A DNA stretch of 64,000 nucleotides from Bacteroidota bacterium. Its GTDB lineage: Bacteria; Bacteroidota; Bacteroidia; Cytophagales; UBA9547. The notes below the pieces were generated by a model, which searched no databases, was not told the origin of the DNA, and saw nothing but the letters and a program-made list of their open reading frames with translations. A program made the translations under genes and the position numbers. Location of the stretch: contig RDZG01000054.1 of the NCBI GenBank assembly GCA_004293915.1, positions 62,001 to 126,000 on the forward strand, written 5' to 3'. Shown piece after piece: positions 39,219-59,100 of the stretch. Positions within the stretch are counted from its first letter, which is position 1. Each line of letters opens with the position of its first letter.

Positions 39219-39464
39219 ATGATATATATTGGAATTATTGCAGCCATTTTAACAACCATTTCGTTTGTACCACAAGTAATTAAAATTTGGAAAACGAACG
39301 ATACAGCCTCTATTTCGCTCGAAATGTTTGTGCTTTTTTCGCTTGGTGTTTTACTTTGGTTGATTTATGGATTTTTGAAACAAGATATTGCCATAGTAAT
39401 AGCCAATTTTTGTACACTCATTATGGCATCATATATTTTGTACAAAAAAATTAAGGGAAAATAA
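39219..39464 (+). CDS. SemiSWEET-type sugar transporter (PQ-loop)
   Basis: From ATG 39219 this is an 81-residue protein with three helices. The PQ-loop motif is in TTISFVPQVIKIWKTNDTASISLEMF, and WLIYGFLKQDIAIVIANFCT follows in helix 3. SemiSWEETs work as homodimers and move sugars across the membrane without an energy source. The start at 39198 lies inside pstC and adds unconserved residues. Confidence 0.87.
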   Translation: MIYIGIIAAILTTISFVPQVIKIWKTNDTASISLEMFVLFSLGVLLWLIYGFLKQDIAIVIANFCTLIMASYILYKKIKGK

Positions 39465-39524
39465 ATTAAGTAGGGATTTGTATCAACGGTTTATTTGAAC
39501 TATAAATTTAACGCAATAATAACT

Positions 39525-39558
39525 TAAAAACCGCTAAACACTTTTCGAGCGGTTTTTT
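39525..39558 (+). terminator. intrinsic terminator after the SemiSWEET gene
   Basis: AAAAACCGCT and AGCGGTTTTTT pair around a 12-base loop and end in a T6 run. It closes the cysE-pstC-SemiSWEET unit. Confidence 0.8.
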
Positions 39559-39841
39559 CAACCCTCGAAAAGTTTGAATGAAGATAAACCCAGTCTGCGT
39601 TTAATAGTTTGATTTTAGCCATTTACTTTTTCGTAGAAAATATATAGTTTAAGGAAAATGCAAAGTTTTAAAAAATGTTTGAATGTTATTGTAAAGATTT
39701 TTTTGATTTTACGTTTCAAGTTTAACATGGACTAGAAAATAAAAATAAATATCTTTTTTGAGAAATATATCGTCCTTATTTTTTTATTCAAAAGTTATCT
39801 TTAATATTACATCATTATTTATATCTAAACAACCAAAAATC

Positions 39842-40421
39842 ATGACTTTAAATTTTACCCCCCCCCATTTTTTATATTAATTTACTAAAAATTAGCACAT
39901 TTTTTATAACATCTTTTTTTGAAAATAGTTTACAGATAAAAAGTGCAGTTTTTCTAACTTTCATTTTTAGCACATTTTCGGTTGTTACCAATGCCCAAAG
40001 CAAGGTTTTGAGTGCTGGTGGAAATGCCACAGGAAATTCGGGTTCGGTTTCTTATTCGGTAGGGCAAATAGATTATGCATCGACATCGGTTTCTAATAAA
40101 GGCTCTATTGGTTTGGGTGTGCAACAACCTTTGATTATCAGCCCAATTACAGGCATCAAAGGTTCTGAGAGATTAACGATTTCATGCAATATTCATCCAA
40201 ACCCAAGCTCTGATTTTGTAGTTTTAGGTTGGGATGCAAGTTTTGAAGTATCTTCTGTAAACTATAAAATAGCGGACATAAACGGCAAAAATATCGTTTC
40301 GGCAACTGCACAAAACCAAACCAAAATTGAAGTTAGCAATTTTGCCACGGGCATGTATATCATAACTGTATATGATACTAAAAATAAATTTATCAAATCG
40401 TTTAATCTCATCAAAAACTAG
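39842..40421 (+). CDS. T9SS sorting-domain protein interrupted at a C9 tract
   Basis: A frame with no stop runs from 39852 to 40421. It encodes a signal peptide (SAVFLTFIFSTFSVVTNAQS), a short Gly/Ser-rich segment (GGNATGNSGSVSYSVGQIDY) and a type A T9SS sorting domain (CNIHPNPSSDFVVLGW to KSFNLIKN). No ATG precedes the signal peptide in this frame; TTG 40008 lies after it. The only well-placed ATG (39842, preceded by an AAAAATC leader) is in another frame, and the C9 tract (39858-39866) lies between. Removing one C, or adding two, joins the ATG to the open frame. The gene may be phase-variable, mis-sequenced or decayed. The mature product is small (about 140 residues) and its function is unknown. 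Confidence 0.6.
39858..39866 (+). repeat. poly-C tract (C9)
   Basis: Nine consecutive C residues lie in an otherwise AT-rich stretch, six codons after an ATG. Homopolymer tracts of this length are prone to slipped-strand mispairing. It separates the only likely start codon from the T9SS reading frame. Confidence 0.9.
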
Positions 40422-40457
40422 AATAACTCATTATTCATAACTCCTATAAATAAATCA

Positions 40458-42242
40458 ATGAAAAAACTCATATCAACAATCGCAATCTCAACCATGTCTT
40501 TTGTGTCCATGGCACAAAGTCCCGACAAATTTACTTACCAAGCGGTAGTACGTTCAGCAAGTACTGCCTTGGTGGCAAACTCCACCGTAGGCGTAAGGCT
40601 TACTATATTACAAGGCTCTGCAAGTGGCAGTGTAAGCTATAGCGAAACGCACACACCCACCACCAATGCCAATGGCTTGTTTACTCTAGAAGTAGGCGGA
40701 GGCACAGCCACTATTGGCACATTTGTAGCTATCAATTGGACAAATGGACCCTATTTCTTAAAATCAGAAATAGATGCCACTGGCGGAACGAGTTATGATA
40801 TAGTATCTACAAGTCAACTTTTGAGTGTACCCTACGCTTTGCATTCCTCTAGTGCTGGTAGTATAGAGTGGGCAAATGTGCAAAATAAACCAAGCATGAA
40901 TTCAAATACCTTTTCGGGTTCTTATGCCGACCTAACCAACAAACCAACAATTCCAGCTTCATTTTCAGGTTCTTATTTAGATTTGACTGATAAGCCAATA
41001 ATCATAAACAACACATTTACAGGTAGTTATAGTGATTTAACTAACAAACCAATTATTCCTGCCTCTTTCTCGGGTTCTAATTTAGATTTGACAAACAAAC
41101 CAGTAATTACAAACAACACATTTACAGGTAGTTATAGTGATTTAACCAACAAACCAACAATTCCAGCTTCGTTTTCTGGTTCTTATTTAGATTTGACTGA
41201 TAAGCCCGTAATCATAAACAATACATTTACAGGCAGTTATAGTGATTTAACCAACAAACCAACAATTCCAGCTTCGTTTTCAGGTTCATATTTAGATTTG
41301 ACAAACAAACCCGTAATTGTAAACAACACATTTACAGGTAGTTATACAGATTTAACAAATAAACCAATAATTCCTGCTTCATTTTCAGGTTCTTATCTAA
41401 GCTTAACTAATAAACCTAATTTTGCAATTGTAGCTACTACAGGAAGTTATAATGATTTAATAAACAAACCCATGATAACTACTTTTACAGGTGGCAATGG
41501 CATAACAATAAATGGCTCAAACCAAATAGTTAATACAGCACCCGACCGCACCGTGAGTATTACAGGTGTAAACGTTACTGTTTTTGGTGTTTACCCTGCT
41601 TTTACAGTTACCTCTGGAATTAAAAACGGCACCATATCAGGACAGATGCTCTATTGGAACGGTACTATTTGGGCAAATGTAAAACCAGGATTAGACAACC
41701 AAGTACTTACCTACTGCAAAGGCGTGCCTACTTGGTTGCCTTCAGGCGGTCTTTGTCCTGTTTCAATTGGCGACAGCCACCAAGGTGGAATTGTAGCCTA
41801 TATTTTACAATCTGGCGACCCAGGCTACGATGCCAATGTGCAACATGGCTTAATTGCTGCCCCTAGCGACCAAAGCACTGGCATAGTATGGTATAATGGA
41901 AGCTACATTACTACAGGAGCAACTGCAACTGCCATAGGATCTGGGAATGTAAACACCAACGCCATTGTAGCTGCCCAAGGAACAGGAAGCTATGCCGCTC
42001 AATTATGTGCCGATTTAACACTAGGGGGATATTCAGACTGGTTTTTGCCATCAAAAGACGAATTAGTGCAGATATATACCAACAGAGCAGCTGTAGGAGG
42101 ATTTAATACTGTTTTATATTGGAGTAGTTCAGAAAACAATGTTAACGATGCTTGGGATGTCTGGTTTGGCAATGGCAACGTCTATGGTTGGTCTGGCAAG
42201 AATACTACGATTACGCGTGTTCGTGCTGTTCGTGCTTTTTAA
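40458..42242 (+). CDS. repeat-rich secreted protein with C-terminal DUF1566 (Lcl-like) domain
   Basis: The 594 residues start with a signal peptide (ends SFVSMAQ). An N-terminal Bacteroidota domain follows (about 21-135, FTYQAVVRSASTALVANSTVGVRLTI). About eleven copies of a motif like GSYxDLTNKPxI lie between residues 150 and 345. A linker of about 95 residues leads to a DUF1566 domain (about 440-594) with GGYSDWFLPSKDELVQIYTNR, YWSSSE and a final RVRAVRAF. DLTNKP repeats occur in fibre-like proteins, including phage tail fibres. DUF1566 has a C-type-lectin-like fold and is a known target class of diversity-generating retroelements. No T9SS domain is visible. It follows the T9SS protein by 36 bases and probably shares its transcript. 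Confidence 0.75.
   Translation: MKKLISTIAISTMSFVSMAQSPDKFTYQAVVRSASTALVANSTVGVRLTILQGSASGSVSYSETHTPTTNANGLFTLEVGGGTATIGTFVAINWTNGPYFLKSEIDATGGTSYDIVSTSQLLSVPYALHSSSAGSIEWANVQNKPSMNSNTFSGSYADLTNKPTIPASFSGSYLDLTDKPIIINNTFTGSYSDLTNKPIIPASFSGSNLDLTNKPVITNNTFTGSYSDLTNKPTIPASFSGSYLDLTDKPVIINNTFTGSYSDLTNKPTIPASFSGSYLDLTNKPVIVNNTFTGSYTDLTNKPIIPASFSGSYLSLTNKPNFAIVATTGSYNDLINKPMITTFTGGNGITINGSNQIVNTAPDRTVSITGVNVTVFGVYPAFTVTSGIKNGTISGQMLYWNGTIWANVKPGLDNQVLTYCKGVPTWLPSGGLCPVSIGDSHQGGIVAYILQSGDPGYDANVQHGLIAAPSDQSTGIVWYNGSYITTGATATAIGSGNVNTNAIVAAQGTGSYAAQLCADLTLGGYSDWFLPSKDELVQIYTNRAAVGGFNTVLYWSSSENNVNDAWDVWFGNGNVYGWSGKNTTITRVRAVRAF
40914..41423 (+). repeat. tandem repeats of 105 bp (DLTNKP region)
   Basis: The coding sequence repeats with a 105-base period (35 codons, two DLTNKP motifs per unit). 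For example, GGTTCT...TTAGATTTGAC occurs at 40968 and again at 41073. Several units are almost identical in DNA, which allows copy-number change by recombination or slippage. Confidence 0.85.
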
Positions 42243-42270
42243 CAATTTTAAAAAAATCGCTTAGCCAGAT

Positions 42271-42560
42271 ATTCCAAGTTTTTGAAACTTGGAAGGTCTC
42301 CTTTGCCGATGTAAACCAACCAAAAGATACCATCCCTCCTTTGCAATAGCGAGGAGGGATGGTATCTTTACGAAAACCTGCGGTAGTCACTAGACATTAG
42401 CCACCAGACCTTCCAAGTTTTAAAAACTTGGAAGGTCTCCTTTGCCGATGTAAACCAACCAAAAGATACCATCCCTCCTTTGCATCAGCGAGGAGGGATG
42501 GTATCTTTACGAAAACCTGCGGTAGCCGCTATACCTTCCAAGTTTTTAAAACTTGGAATG
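42271..42560. repeat. REP-like palindrome block: two 139-bp tandem units plus a half unit
   Basis: Each unit has hairpin type 1 (TTCCAAG...CTTGGAA; 42272-42294, 42407-42437 and a third copy 42534-42560). A spacer with TTTGCCGATGTAAACCAACC follows. Hairpin type 2 has 17-bp arms of AAAGATACCATCCCTCC and their complement (42323-42369 and 42462-42508). The unit closes with ACGAAAACCTGCGGTAG. The unit offset is exactly 139 bases. The block sits directly upstream of a REP-associated transposase gene, as in classical REP/RAYT systems. Confidence 0.9.
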
Positions 42561-42588
42561 TTTTTTTAATTTTTACTACTTTCGTTCT

Positions 42589-43248
42589 ATGAAAGAAAAT
42601 TTCTATCCTGCGTTGCTCGAAAACGAGTTTTATCACATCTACAACCGTGGCAACAACCGTGATATTATTTTTTTTAAGCACGAAAACTACGCCTATTTTT
42701 TGCGAAAATATGACGAATATCTTTCCCCTTTTTTAGAAACATACTGTTACTGTTTGCTGCCCAATCATTTTCATTTGTTGGTCAGGGTAAAATCAAGCGA
42801 GGATGTAGTTACTGCGGTTGAAAGGATTCCATCCCTCTCTCGCTTTCGTCAAGGAGGGATGGAATCCTTAGTTTCGTCTATCATCAGCGAGCAGTTCAGA
42901 CGCTTTTTTATCTCTTATTCCCAATCCATCAACAAACAGCAATCTCGTGTGGGCAGTTTATTCCAGAAAAATTTTAAAAGAAAACATATCGATAGTGAAA
43001 GCTATTTTACATCTGTAGTGCATTATATTCATGCCAATCCACAATCGCATGGCATTTGTGAAGATTACAAATTATATCCCCATAGTTCTTATGGAAGAAT
43101 ATTAATTGATAAGCCAACAAAACTTATGAAAAATGAAATTTTGGAATGGTTTGGTGGAAAGGAAGGGTATCTGAAATTTCATGAAGCTAATTTGAATGAT
43201 GTAAAAGAAAGAAGTATGTATGAGATTGAGGATTCTGCGACATCGTAG
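42589..43248 (+). CDS. REP-associated tyrosine transposase (RAYT, TnpA_REP, Y1 HUH)
   Basis: This 219-residue Y1 transposase has the N-terminal NEFYHIYNRGNNRDIIFF, the HUH metal motif in LLPNHFHLLVRV and the catalytic Tyr region SYFTSVVHYIHANPQSHGI. The conserved block FFISYSQSINKQQSRVGSLFQKNFKRK lies between. RAYTs cut and join single-stranded REP hairpins and are thought to spread them through the genome. I chose ATG 42589; the frame is open further upstream (42553) but enters a hairpin. Residues about 70-105 contain an in-frame REP-like palindrome. It is flanked by type 1 hairpins on both sides (42534-42560 and 43265-43291). Confidence 0.9.
   Translation: MKENFYPALLENEFYHIYNRGNNRDIIFFKHENYAYFLRKYDEYLSPFLETYCYCLLPNHFHLLVRVKSSEDVVTAVERIPSLSRFRQGGMESLVSSIISEQFRRFFISYSQSINKQQSRVGSLFQKNFKRKHIDSESYFTSVVHYIHANPQSHGICEDYKLYPHSSYGRILIDKPTKLMKNEILEWFGGKEGYLKFHEANLNDVKERSMYEIEDSATS
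42822..42869. repeat. REP-like palindrome inside the RAYT coding sequence
   Basis: The arms AAGGATTCCATCCCTC (42822-42837) and its exact complement (42854-42869) are separated by 16 bases. Read on the minus strand it matches hairpin type 2 of the upstream block: CCATCCCTCCTT, a loop with AGCGAG, then AGGGATGG. It is translated as part of the protein (RIPSLSRFRQGGMES) without breaking the frame. Confidence 0.85.
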
Positions 43249-43264
43249 CAGAATGTTTACTAGT

Positions 43265-43291
43265 CTTTCCAAATTTCAAAAACTTGGAAAG
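43265..43291. repeat. REP-like hairpin type 1, downstream copy
   Basis: CTTTCCAAATTTC and AAACTTGGAAAG form a hairpin closely related to the three type 1 copies upstream of the RAYT gene. It starts 16 bases after the RAYT stop, so the gene is bracketed by this palindrome. Confidence 0.75.
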
Positions 43292-43410: not shown

Positions 43411-46400
43411 ATGAAAAAAATATTATTTACACTTATTTTTGGGGCTTGGGCATTGATGTCGCATGGTGCTACTCGGACATATACTGGGCCTACTAATGGA
43501 AATTGGCATGTAGCAAGTTACTGGAGTGGTGGAATAGCACCAACTATTTTAGATGATGTGATCATCCCAACAGGGAAAATTGTAAATATTGCCACAGGCT
43601 CTGTACCAGTTTCTCAATGTTTAAATCTTACTGTAAGTGGTACTGGTACATTAAACATACCAGGTACAAAATCTATTACCATTGCAGGAGATATGTTTGG
43701 CAACGGCACAATTGCCACTACTGCTTTTATTGGAGTATTTGGGAGTATTTATTTAAGAGGCGATAACAACCATACAGGAATATTTACACACAATAATTTT
43801 GGTTACTTTTATTATGATGGTGCTGGTTTTCAAAATATGAGATGCATAAACTACGGCAATCTTTACATTGCAGGAAGTGGTACAAAAACAATAAGCAATT
43901 ACTCTCTCAATATAGTAACTGTTGCTAACGATTTGAATGTGGCAAGTGGCTCAACTTTTCAAATTTTTGGAAGTGCAACTGCGAAAGATTTTTTAGTTTC
44001 TGGTGTAGCAAACATTAATGGGATAGTTAATTTTGGTTCTGGTAACGGGAATTCTGTTTCTGTTGTAGGTGCTTTTTTGGGAAACGGAAGCGTTAATATG
44101 GGATTGGCTACAAGTTATTTAACTTTAAGAGGAGCTACTAATCCATTTGCTGGCACACTAAGTTCTTCGGCAACATCAATTGTGATATATGACCGTGTTG
44201 GAGATCAAACTGTATTTGGAAGTAATGATTATCCTTTGTTAAACATATCTGGAGGAGGTGTAAAAACAATTACAGGTACTTTAATTTGCACTGCTTTTAG
44301 TTTGCAAAATTCTACAGTTCAGTTAGGAGCAATGGCAACAGCATCTGGCACTAATTGGAGTTTTTGGAATCAGGGGACTACAGCACTTACAAGTGGAGAA
44401 TTTCAATTTCTAACACCAGCCAAACGAGTATTTTTGCAAGGGAATGTAAATGGTGCTGCCAATATAAATATGACAAGTGGCAATACAATTGCACATTACT
44501 TGAAATTTGGAGGTAATGGCAATTCTATAACTCCAACCCAAATATTACCTACTGCCACTACAGGCTGTTTAAATACGATTGAATATTCGGGTCCGAGTAC
44601 TCAACCCGTACTCAATAGAGATTATTGCAAACTCATCATCTCGGAATTAGGAGTTAAATCTATGACTGGTTCTGGTTTAACCTATGTATATAATGACATG
44701 GTAATTGGAAGTAATGCTACATTTGATGCAGGTGATTTACAAACATTTAGAACTGCTAATCTAACAGTAGGGGGTACTTTTCAAGATGTAACGGGTGTGC
44801 TATCTGATGAAATATATTTATTGGGTGGTAATGTACATATTTTACCCACAGGTAGAATGATTGGAAATGGACAAACTCGCTTTTGGTTTGCAAATAATGT
44901 ATTAAATCAAGGTATTATTAGCATCTCTGGGGCAGGTAGTTACGATCAGATGGGTGGTGGCGTAAGAACTTTTAATAATCAAGGAACTGTATCATTCAAC
45001 AGAGAGGTACGTGTAGATAATAATTTTACCCTTATTGGTAATCCTTTTTATTTTGGAGATAATGTAACTATTAATGGAGCAAGTAATTCATTAACGATTT
45101 CAACCACAGGAATAAATACAATTGTGGGGATTTTAAATGGAGCTACTGCTTTGAATGGTTTTGTACACTTAGCAAATTCGCATACAAGATGTATGTCTTC
45201 AATTCCAATGGCGACAGGAAGGTTCAATGTTTCAGCTACTGGAAACACTTTTGAATACGCAGGAAGTTTAGTTAATCACACCATCAATAGCTCCGCAGTA
45301 TATGCGAATCTCCTTATCAGTGGAGGGGTGCGAAAAGTGGCTCAATCTTCTTTTAGAGTGCTTGAAAATTGCAGCATTGTTGGTACAAACACCGATTTTT
45401 TATTGGGAATAATCCCGAGTTCAGTGGCAGTTGATATTGGTTCTGATTTGGTTATTGGCAATAGTTCTCGCCTAACTTTTAGTCCAAACGCTACAGTTAT
45501 CATGAATCTGCGAGGAGAACTTCTAGGCAATTCGACCAACTCTACCATTAGTTTTGCAGGAATAAATCCACACAATTTATATGTTTATGGTCAAAACAAT
45601 TCGCTTCAATCAATGATGGGAACGGCTTCTAATACTGTATCTAGTGTGCATTTTGTTTCCAATGATTATAGCCAAAACATTCCACGTGTTAATTACCCAA
45701 ATTTGGTGCTTTCAAGCACGGGTGTTACTAATACTAAAATATTTTCAACAGGAGTAACTAACCCTGTCATAAGTGGAAATTTAACTATGTTTAATACTGT
45801 TTTTGATATTGCTAATACCGATGTTACGCTTTCAAACAATGCTTCTACTGTGATTGGTATTGGTGGCTTTGGCATTGCCAATATGATAAAAACTTCTGGT
45901 ACTGGTAATTTGATAAAAAGATATGCAACAGCAATTTCGGGAGCACAGGAGTTTCTTTTTCCAATTGGCTTAACAGGTTATTCTCCATTAGTAATGAGAA
46001 CCACTGGAACTACCTCTTTTGCTGCAGGCTCTGTTATTTTGGCTTCAGTAAAAAGAAGTATTGCCCCCAATTTGAGAGATGGTACTTACGCACTAAACAG
46101 ATATTGGAATACAAGCTCAATTGGTCTTAGTGCAATAAATGCTACATTAACTGGTTCGTATGTTGATGCTGATTTAAGGGGAATTGAGACCAGTTATGTT
46201 GGAGGATGGTGGAATAATACTTCATGGCAAATTCAACAACCTATTAATTCGGTTGCAAACACAGTTAGTGCCACTTTTACTAGTGCAACTGCTCTCAACG
46301 GAAATCTTACCGCTGCCTACCCCGCTGCTTTCAACTCTTCTATTTCTCTCGGCAATATTGCTACTCCAAGCTTTTGCCAAGGGCAAGTAGTTACTGTTCC

Positions 46401-49400
46401 TGCTCAAAGTTTTGGGACTGCATTTGTGGGTGGAAATCAATTTATCATAGAGGTTTCTACAACGGTTGGTTTTACATCTTTTATATATTCTTTAGGTACA
46501 ATTTCCGCTACCAGTATAGGAGCTTCGGGTATTTCTACCATCATACCTACAACTTTGCCTGCAAGCAATTTCTATAGACTAAGAATAAGAGCCACTAATC
46601 CTTTTTATATTAGTAGTTTAGCTGGCTATGTGTTAACTGTGAACGGAAGTCCGAGTTTTATATCTTCTGTAAATACTAGTATTTGTAGAGATGGTGTAAG
46701 CACCATTTCATTAACTCCAACAGGTGGAACGTCTTGGATAGTAGTGCCAAGCAATTTAGGAACATTTGTTGGTGATGTTTTTACTCCTACTTTGTTTGAA
46801 GGCAATGCAACTACAACTGGTACAATATTTCGTGCTGTAACTGGCGGATGCACAAGTCCAGGTTTGAGCCTTGCTTTTAAAGATATTCCAAATAATGCAA
46901 CATTAGGTAGTTTATTATGTACTAGTCAAACTTTAAATTTAATAACAAGTGCAACCGGAGGTGTTTGGACAACCACAAGTACGCCAGTGTTAAATTTTGG
47001 TTCAATAGCTAGTAATGTTTATACTCCAGGAGTTGGTAACACAGTTAATGTAAATGTAAGTGTAAGTTATATCAAAGCAGGTTGCAAAAGTGCTGAGATT
47101 ATATCTACAGTTTTTCCTAATACTACTATTACATCACAACCAGTCGGAGATGTAGAAGGAATTGGTGGAAATCCTATATTTTCGGTTGTGGCAGCTGGCA
47201 AAGGTCTTACTTACGCTTGGCAAGAAGGAACTCCTTTTGTTTTTTTAAGTCCCAATGCTACCTATACAGGTACAAATACAAACACATTAAGCATTTCAAA
47301 TGTACCCTTATCGCTCAATAACAAACAATACCGAGTTGTGATTACAGGTGCTTGTGGACCAAACATTACCTCCACAGGTGCAGTCCTAACTGTTATCAAC
47401 GTAAGTGCTGCCATGTATCGCTCAGTTAATTCTGGAAATTGGACTACAGCAGGTATTTGGCAAGTTTCTAATAATGGCGGAATTTCTTGGGGAACTACTA
47501 TTAATACACCAGGAACTTTAGTTCCACAAGATTTGGTGAGTATTACAGGAGGTACAAATGTGCAAATTACGGGTGCTTTGGTTAATAAATTATTACATTC
47601 CCTTACCATTTCGGGCAATTTGCAACACAATGGCGTAGATAGTTTGCGGATTGCGGGAGCCACAAACGTGATGGCAACTGGAACGCTTAACGGCTTAAAT
47701 ACATTTTCAAGCATAGTTTTTAATGGACCTTTGATAAATCGAGGTGAGGTTATGTCAAGCTCAAATTCTTTGTTTGTATTCAGAAATGGGATTGTAAATA
47801 ATGGTATAAATCCAAGTACGGGTTCAATGGTATTAAATGGAAATAATACTTTTGGGCTCAATAATCAAACCATATCGGGCACAGCTGCTTTTGTACTTTT
47901 TGTAAATGGATTAGTAAGTATCAATAGTGGTATAGAAGTAACACAAACCATTTCTCCGGTTCAAATAACTGGAAATCTTAACGGTGGAGGAGCAAATTCA
48001 AAATATATACTAGGAAGTAATAAACAACTCTTTTATGCTGGTAATGCCGCACCCATGAACACGGGTCAGCTTGTGGCAAATGCTACGGGTTCAAACGTAT
48101 ATTATGCTTCAAGCTCAGGAACGCAAATCATGAAAGCTACTAATTATTATGATTTGACTTTCAATAACAATGCAATAAAAGAGTTTACAGGTAACATAAA
48201 TGTGGTAAATGATTTTACAGCTGTGAACTCCACAAATGGGGCTTTGCGATTTAGTAGCATCTCTGGAAGCATGCTTTCTGTGGCTGGAATTACCAATCTA
48301 CCAGGAATGACAAGCATTGATATGTCTTTCGGAAATCAACCTCACCAACTCATCCTCTCAGGACCTGTTACTAACATTTCTGGTACGTTCACAAAAGGCT
48401 CAGGCACTGTTATTTACAACGGAACTATGGCTCAAAACGTAATGCCATTTAATTATAATAATTTGATTATTGATAAGGCAAGCACAAAAACACAAGTAGG
48501 AAGTATTTCAGTAACTGGATTTACGGTAACTGGCGGTGCTACTTTAAATGCAAGTAGTAATCAAATAACAGGAAACACAGTAACAGGTTCAATGTTATTA
48601 GATGCCAATACAACTTTAATTTTGGGAAATACAACATCTGGTGCAAATATTACTATGCCAGGATTTAATAGCTTGAATACAATGGTTGATTTAACTAGCA
48701 CTATTATTTTCCAAAGCAACACCAACCAATCTGCTCAAATCCTTAATGCTCCATTTGGAAATTTAATTTTGAGAGGTGGAGGAATAAAAACAGGAGGTTT
48801 TTCTAATGTAAATGGCAATTTGACTGTTGAAAATAATACAGATTATAGAACGAGCAATATTAATTTCTCTGGAAAATTACTTACTAACAATGGATTACTA
48901 AGCTATACCGCTCCTACTGCTAATTTTTATTTTATTGGAGATGGGTTTGCAGCTCAAACAATTGCAGGAACAGCTATTTCTAATTTTGCTAATATTTTTG
49001 TTGATATTAACACAAATATTGACTTAAAACAATCTATATCAGTTACAGGTACATTGGGATTTAACGATGATGGAAACTATATTTTAAATAATAATAACAT
49101 CATACTTTCTGGCAATAATGCCACCATAGTAGGAGCAAATGCCAATCGATGTATTTCTTCGAACGGATTAATTTCTGGCGGAGCGGTTGTTTTGCAAAAA
49201 GGAAATATAGCTACGGATTACGATAAAGTAATACTCCCATTTGCCTTGAACTCAGATGCCGATTTTGTGCAATACAGAATTTCAAACATAGGTGGAGGAA
49301 CAACCAATAGCATTAGTCTGAAACCATTAGCCACTACTATTGGTACAAATTATAATAAATATGGCTTTTGGGCAGATAGAAATGGAACAGGTGGTGCTAC

Positions 49401-52400
49401 TTCATTTACAGTTGGTGTATCCGTGCCAGGTACTTCTTGGGTAGGAAATCCAACCAATATTTTGGCAAATGGCGTCCTACAACCGACAGGTGTAGTTAAT
49501 CAGCCAAATAATACTTATTCTTCCAATCAAATTAATCCTACATTTCCAAGCACCTATTTTGCTGCTGGAAATACACCTGTGGCTAAGAAATATCGCTCTA
49601 TTTCTAGTGGTGCTTGGAATTTTACAGGCAGATGGGAACAAAGCTCGGACGGCACAAACTGGATACCTGCCACTACTAGCCCAGGGATGAGTATCGCTGG
49701 TGATGAAGTAGAAATCAATAATTTTGTAATTATTGATAATGCTATTCCGTATTCAATTTCTACAGTAGGAATAAATGCAGGGGCTACTATGCGATGCGGA
49801 GCTGTTACTGCTAGAAACTTAACCGTAACTGGGAATTTCACTTGTGCAGGAACACTGGATATGACTACAGGTTTTCCTCATAACTTGTATTTGGGAGGAT
49901 TGAATAACAGTATGAGTGGCACTTTATCAGCAAGTGCAGGAAGCACTATACACTACAATGCCAATACAGCACAAACGGTTTTTGTTTCTAATGGATACGA
50001 AAACCTAAATATAAGTGGACTTGGAGAGAAAACCATAAATGCAGATTTTAGAGTAAATAATCTTGTAGTGGCTCAAAATGCTACTTTTACAGGATTGAGT
50101 AATGGGAATCAATCTGCCCAAATTTCAGGTACTTCTGATATTTCTGGAACTTTAAAATTTAAAACACAAGCAGGAGGAGATGGTTGGAATATAGCATTTA
50201 GAGAAGTAGTACAAACTTATCCTACAGGAAAGTTGGTATTGGATAATGCAGGAGATGGAATAGGACTTGATTTTCAAGGAGATTTTATAAACAATGGACA
50301 ATATGTAGATATTACCTCTTCAGCAGACAATTATATCACATTCTCAAACACAAATCCTAAAAGTGTAGTAGCTAATCAACCCATCAATTTTGGGACTGCT
50401 ACAGTAGATGTAACTACTGATACTGAGTTTTCAGGCACTTCATCATTTACCATCTCAAATACATTTACTGTTTCATCGGGAAGTACACTTACTAACCAAT
50501 CTACTATTAATGCTACCACCCTTATCGGTTTAGGAAATTTTGTAAATGCTACTAATGCCACATTTATATACAAAGGGGCTACCATTCCATTGACATATCT
50601 TGATTTTTCTGCTTCAAACAATTTAGCAGTTTTTAATAATACTAATAATTCACAAACTATTCCAGCTATCAATTTTTATAATCTTTCTGTAGTTGGTGTA
50701 GGTTCAAATGGAATGACCTTAGAAGCTGGAGTTATTAATGTAGATGGCAACTTGTATAATGAAACACAAGCTGTTCAGCCTTTGGGAATCTTATCATCAA
50801 ATACTACGCTCAAAATCAGAGGCGATATTGTTGGATCTGGCGTTTTAGCAGTTGCCAATGCTATTACAAATACAGTAATCGAAGTGAGAGGAAACTATAG
50901 TGGTTCAAATAATTTTTCAGTGGGAAATACGAGCGACAATCAATTTATATATGCTGGTTCAGGCAATCAAATTGTAAATGCCAGTAACTATGCTACATTA
51001 GAAGTAAAAAACGGGGGAGATAAAACTGTAAATAGTGCTATCGATATCTATAAAGCACTTTCGCTAAGTGGTGCAAATTTAGTTTTGAATGGGTCAACTA
51101 CTTTAAATTTGTTTAATGGCTCTGTTAATATTGGTGGTTCTGTTCCTTTTGGATTTGGGAATGCGGTGGTGGCGAGTACAAGTGCTAATGCGTTAATTAA
51201 GAATGGCTCGGTAATATCTGATTTTATAAATTTTGTTTTTCCATTGTCTACACCTACTGTATATACTCCACTTACAGTTACAAGTTTCAATTATCCTGTT
51301 GGTAATCAATTTCTTAGTTATGCAGTTACGGACTATACCTCGGCTTATTTAGACTATATTAAACACCAATATTTTATAAACCCATCTTCTGTTTTTAATA
51401 ATTTCAATTTCACTATTGAAGTTACTCCTTCTTCTTCAGTAGGTAATGAAGGTAATTTGCATCTTTTTGATGGGGTTGGTCTCAATGATTTAGGTTTAGT
51501 TAGCAATCCTATTGCAAATAAATTGAGTCATACTATATTATTAAACATGGGAGCTTCTCCATTTACCTTTAATAGCACCACCAACAAACTCTATCGTTCT
51601 GTAACTTCCACCCCTTTCAATTGGACAGCCTCTAACACCAATTGGGAAGAAAGTGCTGATAATGGAGGAACTTGGTCTCCAGCAGCTCAAACCCCTGGTG
51701 CAACGGGTGGTGAAATTTATTCTGTCATTATATCTCCAACCCATACTGTAACAAATAGATATACCAATGCTGCTCCTCAAAATTTATCCATTTCGGGTGG
51801 GGCTTTGTTGGATTTGGCAAATAATGCTTTTTCGGTGGCGGGACAAACTTTTGTAGATGGAGAATTAAGGGCAGGAGGTACTGCCGGGGAAAATATAATA
51901 TTAGGAAAAACTAGCATTGGCTCATTAGGGAAAATACAAGGAGGCACAGATAATGCATTCAATATTACTGATTATTTAGTAAATGATGGGTTGTTTTTCA
52001 ATCCAAGTAATGATGTTGAATTAAATGCACTTTCTGAATTTACAATATCAGGTATAGGACAGAATATTTTTAATGGAGTAAGATTGATGAATGGAACTGC
52101 CAATGTCCTTAATCAAGCACAAGCGTTGACTGTTACAGGTGCGTTAACTGATGACGGAGGAAGTGGGATTGTTTGGAAAAACGATGATAACTCATCTTTT
52201 ACATATAAAGGTTCTGGTACATTATGGTCAGGTACAGGTATCTTCGATGCCACTTCAACAGGCAATACCTTTGAATATGCATTAAATGGAAATCAAACTA
52301 TCCAACCTATTACCTATTTTAACTTAGCTGTTTCTGGAACTGGCACAAAATCTATAACTGCAAACACAACCGCTTTAGGCGATGTGTTGGGTGCTGGTAC

Positions 52401-53187
52401 TCTTGCAGTTGGAAATAATATTACACTTTTTTTGGCAGGAAATTTCGATCACACAGGCACACTTACACCTGCTGTTGGCTCAATTATAGATTATTTTGGT
52501 TCTAACACACAAAATGTAAAACCCACAACTTATGCCAATATGCGAGTGAGAGGCGGTGGAGATAAAATTTTGATAGGTAATGTTACTATTGGAGATGGCA
52601 CTAATTCTTCATCTTTAAATATGGCTGGGGCTAAAGTTGTGTTAGGAGATAATAACCTGATAATAAATAATGCAAGTGGCATTGCTGAAATAACACCTTA
52701 TTCCACCGCAAATTATGTAGAAACCAACGGGCTGGGTTCTTTAGGTAGAAAAGGTCCCGGTGCGATTATTCCATTATATCCCATTGGTTCAAATGGCTTT
52801 TTAGCAAGTGTTACTGGTGCATCTTTTAATATCGCACCTACTAATGGCACTCTATTTTTCCGTACAGAAGCCACAGAAGCTCCTTTGCAAATTAATTCAT
52901 TGTCTTCGTTAAAACGCCATTGGGTGAGTACATGTGTTGGTTGTACTATTTCCAGCGGTACTTATACTTTTAAATATGACGATGCCGATATTCAAGGTTT
53001 GGAAACAAATTACAAATCTGCATATAAAACGAGTGTTGCAAACTGGGTAGTTGGAACACCAGGAGTAACCCCAGCCTCAAACGAAATTAGTATTGTGAAT
53101 CCAGGTGCTACCAGTGTGATGCTTTTTACCGCTGGTCCAATTTTTTTAGAAGCATTGCAACTTTTGGTGATTGGTCAAACAGTTTAG
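43411..53187 (+). CDS. giant repeat adhesin, first part up to the frameshift (3258 residues)
   Basis: It starts with a signal peptide (KKILFTLIFGAWALMSHGA). Long stretches of Asn/Thr/Ser/Gly-rich beta-strand repeats follow, in which phrases like GNGNSI..GTLSASAGS and YNNLxISGxGTKT recur. They are punctuated by a Trp-containing module (YRSxxSGNWxxxxxWExSxDGG) at about residues 25, 1335, 2060 and 2727. Ig-like segments lie at about residues 980-1330, one shared with the cupredoxin gene. The last 13 codons after a T7-A tract are unlike the family and end in TAG. The -1 frame continues the conserved module at that point, so this stop is probably not the true end. No T9SS domain is present in this part. 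It is expected to be exported and displayed on the surface if the frame is restored. Confidence 0.85.
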   Translation: MKKILFTLIFGAWALMSHGATRTYTGPTNGNWHVASYWSGGIAPTILDDVIIPTGKIVNIATGSVPVSQCLNLTVSGTGTLNIPGTKSITIAGDMFGNGTIATTAFIGVFGSIYLRGDNNHTGIFTHNNFGYFYYDGAGFQNMRCINYGNLYIAGSGTKTISNYSLNIVTVANDLNVASGSTFQIFGSATAKDFLVSGVANINGIVNFGSGNGNSVSVVGAFLGNGSVNMGLATSYLTLRGATNPFAGTLSSSATSIVIYDRVGDQTVFGSNDYPLLNISGGGVKTITGTLICTAFSLQNSTVQLGAMATASGTNWSFWNQGTTALTSGEFQFLTPAKRVFLQGNVNGAANINMTSGNTIAHYLKFGGNGNSITPTQILPTATTGCLNTIEYSGPSTQPVLNRDYCKLIISELGVKSMTGSGLTYVYNDMVIGSNATFDAGDLQTFRTANLTVGGTFQDVTGVLSDEIYLLGGNVHILPTGRMIGNGQTRFWFANNVLNQGIISISGAGSYDQMGGGVRTFNNQGTVSFNREVRVDNNFTLIGNPFYFGDNVTINGASNSLTISTTGINTIVGILNGATALNGFVHLANSHTRCMSSIPMATGRFNVSATGNTFEYAGSLVNHTINSSAVYANLLISGGVRKVAQSSFRVLENCSIVGTNTDFLLGIIPSSVAVDIGSDLVIGNSSRLTFSPNATVIMNLRGELLGNSTNSTISFAGINPHNLYVYGQNNSLQSMMGTASNTVSSVHFVSNDYSQNIPRVNYPNLVLSSTGVTNTKIFSTGVTNPVISGNLTMFNTVFDIANTDVTLSNNASTVIGIGGFGIANMIKTSGTGNLIKRYATAISGAQEFLFPIGLTGYSPLVMRTTGTTSFAAGSVILASVKRSIAPNLRDGTYALNRYWNTSSIGLSAINATLTGSYVDADLRGIETSYVGGWWNNTSWQIQQPINSVANTVSATFTSATALNGNLTAAYPAAFNSSISLGNIATPSFCQGQVVTVPAQSFGTAFVGGNQFIIEVSTTVGFTSFIYSLGTISATSIGASGISTIIPTTLPASNFYRLRIRATNPFYISSLAGYVLTVNGSPSFISSVNTSICRDGVSTISLTPTGGTSWIVVPSNLGTFVGDVFTPTLFEGNATTTGTIFRAVTGGCTSPGLSLAFKDIPNNATLGSLLCTSQTLNLITSATGGVWTTTSTPVLNFGSIASNVYTPGVGNTVNVNVSVSYIKAGCKSAEIISTVFPNTTITSQPVGDVEGIGGNPIFSVVAAGKGLTYAWQEGTPFVFLSPNATYTGTNTNTLSISNVPLSLNNKQYRVVITGACGPNITSTGAVLTVINVSAAMYRSVNSGNWTTAGIWQVSNNGGISWGTTINTPGTLVPQDLVSITGGTNVQITGALVNKLLHSLTISGNLQHNGVDSLRIAGATNVMATGTLNGLNTFSSIVFNGPLINRGEVMSSSNSLFVFRNGIVNNGINPSTGSMVLNGNNTFGLNNQTISGTAAFVLFVNGLVSINSGIEVTQTISPVQITGNLNGGGANSKYILGSNKQLFYAGNAAPMNTGQLVANATGSNVYYASSSGTQIMKATNYYDLTFNNNAIKEFTGNINVVNDFTAVNSTNGALRFSSISGSMLSVAGITNLPGMTSIDMSFGNQPHQLILSGPVTNISGTFTKGSGTVIYNGTMAQNVMPFNYNNLIIDKASTKTQVGSISVTGFTVTGGATLNASSNQITGNTVTGSMLLDANTTLILGNTTSGANITMPGFNSLNTMVDLTSTIIFQSNTNQSAQILNAPFGNLILRGGGIKTGGFSNVNGNLTVENNTDYRTSNINFSGKLLTNNGLLSYTAPTANFYFIGDGFAAQTIAGTAISNFANIFVDINTNIDLKQSISVTGTLGFNDDGNYILNNNNIILSGNNATIVGANANRCISSNGLISGGAVVLQKGNIATDYDKVILPFALNSDADFVQYRISNIGGGTTNSISLKPLATTIGTNYNKYGFWADRNGTGGATSFTVGVSVPGTSWVGNPTNILANGVLQPTGVVNQPNNTYSSNQINPTFPSTYFAAGNTPVAKKYRSISSGAWNFTGRWEQSSDGTNWIPATTSPGMSIAGDEVEINNFVIIDNAIPYSISTVGINAGATMRCGAVTARNLTVTGNFTCAGTLDMTTGFPHNLYLGGLNNSMSGTLSASAGSTIHYNANTAQTVFVSNGYENLNISGLGEKTINADFRVNNLVVAQNATFTGLSNGNQSAQISGTSDISGTLKFKTQAGGDGWNIAFREVVQTYPTGKLVLDNAGDGIGLDFQGDFINNGQYVDITSSADNYITFSNTNPKSVVANQPINFGTATVDVTTDTEFSGTSSFTISNTFTVSSGSTLTNQSTINATTLIGLGNFVNATNATFIYKGATIPLTYLDFSASNNLAVFNNTNNSQTIPAINFYNLSVVGVGSNGMTLEAGVINVDGNLYNETQAVQPLGILSSNTTLKIRGDIVGSGVLAVANAITNTVIEVRGNYSGSNNFSVGNTSDNQFIYAGSGNQIVNASNYATLEVKNGGDKTVNSAIDIYKALSLSGANLVLNGSTTLNLFNGSVNIGGSVPFGFGNAVVASTSANALIKNGSVISDFINFVFPLSTPTVYTPLTVTSFNYPVGNQFLSYAVTDYTSAYLDYIKHQYFINPSSVFNNFNFTIEVTPSSSVGNEGNLHLFDGVGLNDLGLVSNPIANKLSHTILLNMGASPFTFNSTTNKLYRSVTSTPFNWTASNTNWEESADNGGTWSPAAQTPGATGGEIYSVIISPTHTVTNRYTNAAPQNLSISGGALLDLANNAFSVAGQTFVDGELRAGGTAGENIILGKTSIGSLGKIQGGTDNAFNITDYLVNDGLFFNPSNDVELNALSEFTISGIGQNIFNGVRLMNGTANVLNQAQALTVTGALTDDGGSGIVWKNDDNSSFTYKGSGTLWSGTGIFDATSTGNTFEYALNGNQTIQPITYFNLAVSGTGTKSITANTTALGDVLGAGTLAVGNNITLFLAGNFDHTGTLTPAVGSIIDYFGSNTQNVKPTTYANMRVRGGGDKILIGNVTIGDGTNSSSLNMAGAKVVLGDNNLIINNASGIAEITPYSTANYVETNGLGSLGRKGPGAIIPLYPIGSNGFLASVTGASFNIAPTNGTLFFRTEATEAPLQINSLSSLKRHWVSTCVGCTISSGTYTFKYDDADIQGLETNYKSAYKTSVANWVVGTPGVTPASNEISIVNPGATSVMLFTAGPIFLEALQLLVIGQTV
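53141..53148 (+). other. frame change at a T7-A tract (U UUU UUA heptamer)
   Basis: Seven T residues (53141-53147) are followed by A. In the incoming frame the codons are ATT TTT TTA, so 53142-53148 reads T TTT TTA, the heptamer used for -1 frameshifting in HIV-1 gag-pol. Shifting -1 gives TTT AGA AGC ATT and the residues FFRSIATFGDWSN, matching the adhesin's own FRSIATGNWND module at 56,223. One extra T in the DNA would have the same effect. No clear downstream stimulatory hairpin is visible. Confidence 0.85.
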
Positions 53188-56100
53188 GAGGGATTTGGGA
53201 ATCTTCTCCAGATGGTATTAATGGGTGGACTTCAGTTCCTGTTGGAGATTATCCTGGAAAATATTTACCTGGCAATGTAGTAGATATTGATGCTGGAACT
53301 ATTGTAACTTTAGATGTAACACCACTTGAATTAGGAAATGTAACGGTAAGTGGTACATTAAATTCTAATACCAACACAAAAATTACTTTTGGACAAAAAA
53401 TGTCGAGTATTGGCACTGGTACTGTTGCATTAAATGGTGATGCTGAATTCAAAAATGGAATAATCTATAATTCTACAAATAGTTTTTCCTTAAATCGAAA
53501 TACTTTATTTACAACTAATAATCAAACCATTAGTGGTATTGGCACTTCTAATTTCAGTACTGGCGCAAGTACGATTGCTGGCATTATAGTAACCAACCAA
53601 TTAAATCCAATTTGGGTTATGACTGGTTCAGTTACGGGTACAGATGTTAATTCAACTTTGGAAAACGATAAATTATTGTCCATTAGATTTGCAGCAGAAC
53701 CTATGGCAATAGGAAATTTAGTTTCTACCTCCACAAGTTCTATTTTATGGTACGAAAATACAGGGATTAGAACCATAAAAGGGGGGACATATTATACTAT
53801 TATTCTTGCTGGAATAGGTACAAAAACGTTAAACGGAGATGTAACAACAAACATAATTGGAATAAATGGTGCGTTGAGTTTTGGAAATTCGGTTGCTCGT
53901 ACTTTGAGCGTTACAGGTACACTTACCGTTAGCAATACCATTGATATGTCTGGCACGCTTGCTCATCAATTGTATATCTCTGCAAATGCGATTAACTCTT
54001 TAGCAGGGTTAAATTTATTGGCGGGAAGTGGAACGGTGCATTACAACAGAGCTAGCATACAAAATATTCTACCATTTACTTACAATAATCTCATTTTAAT
54101 TAATTCTCAAAAAAATCTACTTAACAGCACCACCATCACTGGGAACTTAAATATAGCCACCAATGCCACCCTTTCTTGTTCAAATGTCGCCAATCAAAAT
54201 ATATTATTTGCTTTAGGAAATTCCACCATCAATGGTATGTTAGATTTTGGAACTACTGTGCATACCATGGCTTTTGGTAGCGATGTTGGAATTCAAAATT
54301 TAGTTGGAAACGGTACCATCCGCATGAAAGGTTCAGGTTTGGCTCATGTTTGGGATAATAAACTCGATAACAACAATTTTACAGGAACCATAGATGCTGA
54401 TTTGCCAAGTGTGGTGGCTTTTACAAAAGATAATATGGTCTTTGGACAACCTTTGCCATCCAAAAATGGCATAAATGCTTATCCAAATGTATTGATGTCT
54501 GGACAAAGCCCTAAACAACAAACTTTTTTGAGTTTAATCAATGGTGATTTGACAGTAACAGGTGCAACTTTCAATACAGGTTCTGCAAATGGCGAAATTT
54601 TGACTGTAGTCGGAAATACTTTATTGGATGGTTCTACCGCAATACTAAGTTCACTAAACGCATCAAGTCCGCAAATATTTGTTTTCAAAGGCGATTTTGA
54701 AATTAAAAACGATGCTAGATTAAATATTAGTTTAACAATTGGCAACAAAGCCGTGATGTACGGAGCAAATAATGTAGCTACAAATGGTAATTTAAGTGCT
54801 GACTGCAATAACACCTTAGAATATGCACTTTTGGGTAACCAACGTATGTTTGATTTTGGAAATGCAAATGCAATAACTCATCAATTATTGATTTCTGGTT
54901 CAGGCACCAAAACTGTAACTTCTGCTATAAATGTATGCGGTTTGAGTATTACTGGCACTTCTACCTTATACACAAGCGACAAACAAATTACGGGTACAGT
55001 CACAGAAAAAATGCTGATGGAAAGCGGCACTAGTTTGATATTGGGAAACCCTGCAAATGCCACAGCTGTTTTATTTCCAACTAATTTTACAAGACCCAAT
55101 ATAAACCTTGCTCCAGCCAGTACAGTAGTTTATCAATCTTTTATCAATCAAAATATAAGTGCAGTGCCTACCTATGGAAATCTGTATATAGATGGCTCTG
55201 GAATTGTAAAAAGTTTAGATGGCAATACAACTGTTTTGGGTAGCCTATGGATAAAAAATGGACATTTAGATTTCAATACTTCTGTTTCTAATCTTGATGT
55301 GATAGGGGCAAGTACGGTAAATGGTGTATTGCAATTTACAGGAGCTACTACCCAACTGGTTGCAGTTACGTTTAATAGCGATTTATTAGTTACTAACCAA
55401 TTGAATTTTGCCAACAATTTTGCACACAATGTAAATGTGCTAGGTGATTTTAATTGTAGCAATACATTAAATATGACTGGTGTTGCAACTGCTCCGTATA
55501 GTTTGAATTTGTTTGGAGCTAATAATACAATCAATCAATCAAATTTTTCAACCAATCCTAATGGGACTGTAGCTTATAGAGGAACAATCACTCAAAATAT
55601 AGCCCAATTAAATACAAATCCTTATGCCAATTTGGTAGTTAGTGGAGGAGGTATCAAAAGTATTTTGAATGATACCAAAGCTAATACCTTGCATTTGGAT
55701 GGAGCAGTAGTGCAAATGGTTTCTCCAAAACTTTTGTATGTAAATTCTATTACGGGTTCAGTCGTTTATGATGTCAATAATATGGTCAGTGCAGATCCCT
55801 CTGGCGTTGGAGGAACCCTTGTGAAATTAGGCACTGCCAATAATCAATTCAAAGATTTTGTATTCCCTATTGGCGTAAATGGAATTTATTCTTCAGTTTC
55901 TATTGTGGGAATAAATGCATCAAGTTATAATGGCACAGGAGAAATTAGGATAAAACCCATAGATACAATTTTGGGGTCAAATTATATGAGCAGAATGTTT
56001 GAAATTTCTAGTGCTAGTATCGTAGGAATTACAGATTTTAAAACGCAATTTTTTGTAGATCCAAGTCAAGTAAATGGCACACCAAATTTAGTAAAAATAA

Positions 56101-59100
56101 ATGGAATAACATTGCCAAATAGCTTTGTAGATGGTTCTAGTGCAAGTTTTGGATATATTAACGCAGCTAATAATTCCTCTATTAACGGTACTTGGTTTGC
56201 AACTGCAAACCCAATTCCTACCTTTTTCCGCTCTATCGCTACAGGAAACTGGAACGACCCTACCAAATGGGAAGGTTCGGCTGACGGCATAAGCTATTAT
56301 AGTTTAGTGAGTGGGCAATATCCTGGAGCTAGTGCAAGTGGGGATATGGTAAGTATCAGTGGAGCAACCACTATTACTGGAAATGTAAGTCCTTTGGAAT
56401 TAGCCTCGATAACGGTAAGTGGAACTTGGAATATAGGAGCTAATAATTACACCATTGCAGGACAAACATTGATTAATTCGGGTGGTGGTTACATTACTGG
56501 AATTGCAGCTCCAAGAACTTATTTTATTGATAAAGTATTTATGAGTGCAGGTAGTCAATTTTTGACTGGAGCAAATGCCTATCAAGAATTTCAAAACGGA
56601 TTTGTGAATAATACTTCATTTCCTGCTGATTTTAGCTTGAATGGACACACTAAGTTTGCATTAAATAATCAAACAATTTCAGGTTCATTAGCTAACTATA
56701 CTTTTTGCTACGGTTTATTAGAAGTAGATAATGATGTAACAGTCGAGAGCCAATCTAGGTTTGTTGATTTGGCTGCAAATACTTCTTTGATAGGTTTAAA
56801 TGCGAATTCTACTTGGAGATTAGGTTCAAATAATAATGCAATTTATACAAGTAGTAGTGTTGAGTTAATGAAAGGCGGTATTTTGAACGCTACGTTGCCA
56901 AGCACATTTGTTGCCTATTTAGGTAATAATCAAAAAATAAAAAACACAAACTATTATACTATTCAAATTGGTAATCCTGGTACTAAAATTATTGAAGGAC
57001 AAGTAAATGCTACTTTTTTAGGAAATATTTCTGGATTTGCTACACTTTCGTTTTCGGGGGCACAGCTTTCTGTATTATCCGTAACAAGTGATTTTTATCT
57101 TAATTATAACACCAATGGAGCGGATATGTCTGGTGGTGGATTTGCACATCGATTATATATTGGAGGAGCTACAAATACTATTTCTGGTGCTTTTACTGCT
57201 GGAAACGGAAATATTATTTATAACGGTACGGGCAGTCAGGAAATCATTGATTTAGATTATAATAATCTCGAAGTATCTGGGAATAGCACCAAATCTCTAA
57301 CAGGAAACACCTCCATATCAGGTACTTTGAATATGAATGGCGGAGTTTTAGACCTTGGAATTTATAGTTTAACTACTTCTGGAATTACGCCTACTACCGT
57401 GTATTCTCCTCTGAACATGATACGGATGAGTGGTACTACTACTTTGGGTATTTTGTGCTTACGAAATCCTATTTCTGGTTTTGAAATCGTATATCCTGTA
57501 GGTACCGCAAACGACTATACTCCTGTTTTCTTTAGCACACTTAATTCTAGTTTGATTTCTACGGAAAAGTCAGTTCGTATTCAAATTGTAACATTAACAG
57601 GAGGCACTAATAGGATAAACAGAGCCTTCAATATCAGTACAAATGGCTTAGAACCTGCTAATAATTTTACTGCGGAATTTATTTTTGTACCAAGTGATAT
57701 TGTAGGTACTCCAAATAATGTAAATAGGTATAGCCCTACTCAAAATGCCATTGCTAGTGGTGTGGTAGATTTTGGCTTATTCAAATATACTGTAAATGAA
57801 ACTGCGAGTGGAGCTTTGTCCGTTTCTGGACTTTGGGTAGCAGAAAGCAATCCTGTTCCCACCATGCCACTAGGCAATAGAGGTATTTATTTTGATGGAG
57901 TAGATGATTATGTTTCATGTGGAAGCTCAATAAATACGGTTCTTCATTCTACTGCATTTACAGTTGAGGCGTGGGTGAAACTTCCCAAAGTAAATGCTGA
58001 ATATATTATTTTATCTAACAGAACAACTTCGAATAATGGGCTTTCAGTAAGTATAGGAAGTGGTCAGCTATCATTTTCTTTTGGGAATGTTGCTGTTGTA
58101 TCTTCTCCAAGTGTTTTAACAGATGTTAATAAATGGTATCATGTAGCAGTGAGTTATGGAGCTGGAAATGTTAATTTTTATGTTGATGGAGTCTTGGTTC
58201 ATAATTCAACAATTAGTCCTATAAATCCATCAAATATTGGTGCAACTTTAGGCAGAAGTGAATTTTTATCGGTCTACTCTAATTTTCAAGCAGACGAAAT
58301 CAAAATATTCAACACCGCTCGCACTGCATCAGAAATACGAGCAGATATGAGCAGTACAGCTACAGGTACGGCTGGCATGGTAGCATATTGGAACTTTGAA
58401 GACGATGCAGCGGTTGGAAATCAAACTATTGCTACCGATGTGACAGCCAATACCAATGATGGAACTTTAACAAACGGTCCACTTTGGGCTTTGCGTGTAA
58501 CCGACAACACCGATAACGGAGGTGCAGGGCTTGGTTCTCTTCGCCAAGCGATTACAGATGCAAACTCAGATAATGACAAAGATTATATTGATTTCAGTAT
58601 GCCAAGTGGAACGCAAACCATACAGCCAACCACAACCTATAATTTAACACAACCTGTTTTTATTGATGGATTTTCACAATTAAATACCATTGCAGGAGAA
58701 AATTCTATACCAAATTCAAATTCTTTTGGACTGCCAATAAATGCCAAATTGAATGTTGTTATTTCTGGTCCTGCACCTGGAAATGCCACATGTTTTGATT
58801 TGGGTAATACATCAAGTGGAAGTATTTTTAAAGGGTTGGTCGTGAACCACTTTGGCTTAAATGGAAGTACAGCAGCTTTCAATTTAGCTTCAGATTCCAA
58901 CAATCATACAATTTCAGGATGCTTTTTAGGTGTAAACAGAGATGGAACTGCTGTAACTGCGGCAGAACTTAATAATGTGAGTTTGTTGGCCCTTTCAACC
59001 AGTGCATTAGTTCTTGGTGGGAATTCAGATGCAGACCGGAACTTGGTTTCTTCTGGTGAATTGTTTTGGAATGGCAGTACGAATAATACCATTACAGGAA

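Follow-up and report, generated by a model that had tools for sequence, protein, structure and literature searches.

The window gene, a small exported-protein gene at positions 39842-40421 of the window (the whole 64,000-nucleotide stretch of DNA analysed here), carries shortly after its ATG a run of nine C residues (C9), which is probably the slippage-prone element of a translational ON/OFF switch, i.e., a case of localised hypermutation. We put the probability of this reading at roughly 60%, since the layout of a start codon followed by a C run recurs in front of other surface-protein genes in the same bacterium and in a relative.

Start region of the window gene

The features of the locus are as follows.

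39842-39857, + strand: ATG and AT-rich leader codons (MTLNF and the first base of a Thr codon), read directly; the ATG-tract phase is the same in six of six leaders
39858-39866, + strand: C9 tract, proposed slipping element (sequence read, tract counts)
39867-39935, + strand: AT-rich stretch in open frame, an N-terminal extension at C8
39936-39998, + strand: signal-peptide-like frame IKSAVFLTFIFSTFSVVTNAQ, recognised by eye; intact relatives start normally about here
39999-40421, + strand: body of the small exported protein, with a T9SS type A sorting domain at about 40191-40397
40458-42242, + strand: next gene, 594 aa, with fibre-like repeats and an Lcl C-terminal domain (PF07603, E 2.2e-11)

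A preliminary description of this DNA had placed the C9 tract between the ATG and the signal peptide of a T9SS protein, and the sequence is as described. The product carries the C-terminal sorting domain of T9SS type A cargo, recognised by both PF18962 (E 4.7e-13, 49.7 bits with a cut-off of 27) and TIGR04183 (35.7 with a cut-off of 23). A putative signal peptide was recognised by eye in a frame that lacks a normal start. This frame, which carries IKSAVFLTFIFSTFSVVTNAQSKVLSAGG..., stays open between 39867 and 40421, and the earliest ATG, GTG or TTG codon in it is TTG 40008, located 3' of the signal peptide; up to the signal peptide the frame is indeed devoid of an ordinary start, as had been noticed earlier. 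ATA 39936 may be the lost ATG of the gene.

The tract follows ATG 39842 at a distance of 16 nt (five codons plus one base). At the assembled length of C9 the frame from this ATG stops after 12 codons, and at C10 after 15 codons, while the loss of one unit (C8) joins it to the otherwise open frame of the gene and extends it to 192 codons. By arithmetic from the C8 result, C11 joins the ATG to the signal peptide too. The earlier statements that the ATG is out of frame at C9 and that C8 or C11 restores a full protein are thus both borne out. The N-terminus joined at C8 is unusually long and has two hydrophobic stretches. Because the assembled C9 puts ATG 39842 out of frame, the gene is apparently OFF in the assembled genome, which is the state proposed for it in the preliminary description.

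The switch can be pictured as follows. Translation would begin at ATG 39842 and run through the tract, and the signal peptide would be reached only at some tract lengths. Slippage at replication would alter the tract length within the population and hence the frame. In the ON state the small T9SS protein would be exported. When the gene is OFF, little of the message would be translated, which could also lower the expression of the Lcl-domain gene by a polar effect.

A search for a promoter upstream of 39842, which had been suggested as a check, gave a negative result: there is no exact match to TAnnTTTG, the Bacteroidota -7 motif, on the + strand of the upstream gap, and sigma-70-type sites are found there near the shuffle level. 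DNA inversion as a way of switching the start of this gene was considered and rejected, as the region 39400-40500 holds only imperfect AT-rich pairs and no suitable inverted repeats.

A leader recurring in the genus

All 14 tracts of at least seven Cs in the genome (G000, a 3.85 Mb draft in 156 contigs and one assembly of the species) were read in context, signal peptides being judged by eye. Four of the eight tracts of C8 or longer have the layout of the window gene, with an ATG 16-22 nt upstream and a signal peptide downstream: the window gene itself and genes on contigs C99, C93 and C21. In each of these leaders the ATG is followed by a small number of AT-rich codons, by Thr-Pro-Pro codons that contain the C run and by a hydrophobic signal-peptide stretch. 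The C99 leader has a C9 tract and is in frame (MKVTLKFTPPHFILISIFSICFAMQTNAQT); the window gene (C9), C93 (C8) and C21 (C8) leaders are out of frame. None of the six exact-C7 tracts of the genome has a leader. The C8 tracts on contigs C9, C30 and C44 (L001, L003 and L004) apparently lie within coding sequence of the opposite strand, as judged by eye.

Two further leaders were found in G006, a genome of the same genus. The one on contig 36 (C7, out of frame) belongs to a relative of the C99 gene, and the one on contig 7 (C10, out of frame) to a different protein of 1030 aa; the DNA 3' of the tract is common to both while the proteins are unlike. Altogether, six leaders from two species have tract lengths from C7 to C10, with one in frame and five out of frame. 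The ATG-tract distances are 16, 16, 16, 22, 19 and 19 nt, so that all six share a single phase.

The flanks of the tract are shared as well. Of the 20 flanking positions compared (13 preceding the tract and 7 following it), 18 are identical between the window gene and C99, whereas the best of 10 control tracts from the same genome matches the window leader at 9 of 20, and none of 2517 AT-rich stretches reaches at least 18 against C99. In the alignment of C93 with C99, the first block spans 840 columns at 93% identity and starts 8 bases before the tract; no similarity upstream of this block was reported. C99-type leaders have a stop in both other frames within 18 codons of the ATG, and the leader copies are dispersed over different contigs.

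The leader type of the genus can be described as an ATG with five to seven AT-rich codons behind it, then Thr/Ser-Pro-Pro encoded by C7-C10, and finally a signal peptide. As it precedes several fibre-like surface proteins, these would form a small set of switchable surface genes.

The remaining C8 tract of the genome, on contig C72 (L005:7026-8012, G000:C72), is located around codon 11 of a 328-aa gene with a GTG start and is currently in frame. The gene looks glycosyltransferase-like by eye and lies immediately 3' of an acyltransferase-like gene. It is a possible further switchable gene.

Tract counts and controls

The number of tracts as such was rejected as an argument. The pattern CCCCCCCC is found in two rows in the window, with a shuffle mean of 0.21 and at least two rows in 5 of 100 shuffles. 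Genome-wide there are 10 rows, which represent eight C8+ tracts (two C9 and six C8), against about 12.6 expected when the window shuffle mean is scaled by hand to 3.85 Mb. Since the C8+ count fits the shuffles, abundance says nothing in favour of a switch. It is the placement of the leaders and their shared flanks that exceed chance. In addition, CCC makes up 9% of Pro codons and ACC 14.5% of Thr codons in the 26 open reading frames of the window, so the chance of Thr-Pro-Pro being written as ACC CCC CCC is about 0.001.

The leader pattern WWTTTACCCCCCCCAT has matches in 5 of 291 genomes of the order, one of them G000. A wider spread of the leader was rejected, as the four matches outside G000 are intergenic or opposite other frames by eye and include no start leaders. 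For tracts of C9 or longer, 118 genomes were searched and 101 had a match; the control consisted of the first-listed place in each of 28 of these. Eight of the 28 loci have an ATG at most 75 nt upstream and a frame of at least 90 codons; by eye, none of the 28 is an ATG-tract-signal-peptide leader, and the notion that start-proximal tracts are general was dropped. Where control tracts lie inside long frames, most leave the frame intact, with L123 and L130 as the exceptions. In L134 a G12 tract is located 60 nt 3' of an ATG and is out of frame. Because the controls lack leaders and mostly keep the frame, random tracts or assembly errors would not usually be expected to yield out-of-frame leaders.

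At one locus of the order, L152 (G029:C1:2296000-2309000), C9 tracts occur three times at intervals of about 2.4 kb, and their flanks are almost identical (GGAATTA-C9-ATTTTATTAC). Every tract is located roughly 150 nt before a small gene starting with MNSLKKKFGKFAV. The flanks resemble the window leader, and there is no ATG just before the tracts.

Other repeats at the same point

A third paralogue of the genome, on contig C96, has (AC)7 in place of poly-C, directly before the same remainder of the leader. This is the only place in G000 with a repeat of (AC)6 or longer, and G005 and G006 have none. With the seven units present, a TTG codon located 12 nt before the (AC) repeat is out of frame; five or eight units would bring it into frame. 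In G005, the contig with a relative of the fibre genes (L086:1-110, G005:C105) starts inside a (CACAT)n array which ends shortly before the ATG. In G001, a genome of another genus of the same family, four paralogues (L061-L064) have G7, G8, G9 and G11 at one site towards the end of the signal peptide; three of their four contigs begin at most 90 bases from the poly-G tract. The relatives G006:C9 and G000:C30 have ordinary starts without a repeat.

We tentatively suggest that exported proteins with no relation to one another, namely a small T9SS protein and a number of fibre proteins, may each have acquired a portable start module as it spread through one genus of Cytophagales, and would have become switchable by it. 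The module would comprise the ATG, the slippery poly-C and the first part of the signal peptide, both alternative frames being closed by stops, and the tract could be replaced at the same joint, e.g., by (AC)n. Such a scheme is possible rather than likely.

Gene integrity and alternative explanations

Seven repeat-bearing genes of the genus (six with poly-C leaders and the C96 gene) were followed to their ends, and four of them have a second lesion. C93 has lost its 3' end and also has a gap of one base a short way past the tract; C99 has a deletion relative to C96, its frame ending at 782; G006:C36 has a frame change near the C-terminus; in C96, 679 codons are followed by a deletion. Apart from the tract, the window gene, C21 and G006:C7 are apparently complete and open to the end.

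These lesions lend some weight to the view that the window gene is a decaying pseudogene, which has lost its start near 39936 (now ATA) and retains the poly-C leader as a functionless remnant. Its orthologue in G005 is a pseudogene, truncated at the 5' end and with an internal TAA, located near a pstC-like gene as in the window (L032 and L113, probably one record, the MAG Cytophagales bacterium PH2015_03D_30_9). The closest intact relatives (L117-L120 left out) have a normal start at about the equivalent of 39936 and need no tract. However, the window gene is open over its whole body and already from the tract on, and the leader flanks are common to this gene and the in-frame C99 gene. Pairwise comparisons of the body gave dN 0.35 and dS 1.24 with G006, and dN 0.17 and dS 1.28 with G005, ratios well below 1 when averaged over the whole divergence. 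As far as the alignments go, they show a gene body under constraint, although pairwise dN/dS is no proof of present function. We consider decay unlikely, yet it is the alternative that deserves most attention. The proposal of a phase-variable gene made in the preliminary description is therefore kept in part: the recurrence of the layout with varied lengths and frames and the (AC)7 paralogue speak for it, while decay with loss of the start, favoured by the lesions in sister genes, stays beside it as an alternative.

The poly-C leader could also be mainly a recombination joint, at which partly broken copies swap bodies and 5' ends (antigenic variation by gene conversion), with frame effects being secondary. 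The similarity of C93 and C99 that begins at the tract and is preceded by unlike DNA, the G006 leaders with the same DNA after the tract and different proteins, and the presence of several broken copies would all suit such a role. Nevertheless, the single ATG phase in six of six leaders and the frame-breaking tract lengths suit a frame switch better, and the copies are dispersed on different contigs, which makes the joint an improbable explanation.

It is more improbable still that translation simply starts after the tract, at ATA 39936 or another unusual codon, and that the tract is irrelevant. Relatives do start at about that place, but no in-frame ATG, GTG or TTG precedes the signal peptide, ATA is a very poor start codon in known bacteria, and the shared leader would be left without an explanation. 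That the tract length is merely wrong in a draft assembly of 156 contigs, the real gene being always in frame, is hardly credible, given that most C9+ tracts inside long frames at the 28 order-level loci keep the frame and that five of six leaders are out of frame in two assemblies. A slipping switch is the reading that we prefer.

Downstream gene and neighbourhood

The Lcl-domain gene begins 36 nt downstream of the window gene and is possibly its operon partner. It includes 105-base tandem repeats; its score against Bdello_MAT_N (41 bits) is under the cut-off of 60. Further downstream, a near-perfect hairpin TTCCAAGTT-N5-AACTTGGAA is present in four copies, with none expected, at 42267-42561 and 43267-43289 of the window. 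The hairpins and a 139-base tandem unit lie beside an open reading frame at 42553-43248, which gave no Pfam match when searched from 42589 and which we take to resemble a REP-associated tyrosine transposase. It is followed by two giant open reading frames in tandem, one at 43411-53187 (3258 aa), without a Pfam match, and the other at 53400-63998 (more than 3500 aa), which runs off the window.

Comparison with known switching systems

In Neisseria, Haemophilus and Helicobacter, phase-variable genes for surface proteins are known that carry repeats close to the start; such genes are listed in a recent review (PMC11868660). Judged from its sequence, the anatomy described here is that of SSR phase variation in Campylobacter, Helicobacter and Neisseria, with a simple repeat near the 5' end of the coding region (the C9 tract close behind the ATG). 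The Neisseria, Haemophilus and Helicobacter genes are similar in having the repeat in the 5' coding end and in being turned ON or OFF by frame. The present case differs in phylum, in protein families (T9SS and fibre proteins) and in having a leader that is common to unrelated genes. The poly-G/poly-C contingency loci of Campylobacter jejuni are comparable in several respects: G/C tracts of at least 7 in an AT-rich genome, surface products and a frame set by tract length; switching frequencies there are 0.004 for G8 and 0.02 for G11 (PMC4965091). C. jejuni has 29 tracts, most of them in the main body of a reading frame (PMC4965091), whereas the tracts described here, recognised from sequence alone, are few and located right after the start codon within a shared leader.

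The inversion switches of Bacteroides, a member of the same phylum, likewise produce surface diversity, but they require inverted repeats and a recombinase, and the start of the window gene has no suitable inverted repeats. The 2025 review of phase variation treats Bacteroides under inversion and, in its accessible part, names no Bacteroidota example of repeat slippage (PMC11868660). Slippage was suggested in a run of four Cs in an acetyltransferase gene of B. fragilis (PMC3090145). We recognised no repeat-slippage switching of Bacteroidota T9SS or fibre genes in a partial literature, mostly without subscription papers and including parts of PMC3711429, PMC4322650 and PMC8698959, which is weak evidence of absence.

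Bacteroidota are best known for inversion switches. If our reading is true, a set of frame switches based on poly-C and dinucleotide repeats in genes for T9SS and fibre proteins would add a second and simpler mechanism, and would explain genes which are annotated as broken or startless. For bacteria living in water, we speculate that such switching could play a part in escape from phages or predators and in attachment.
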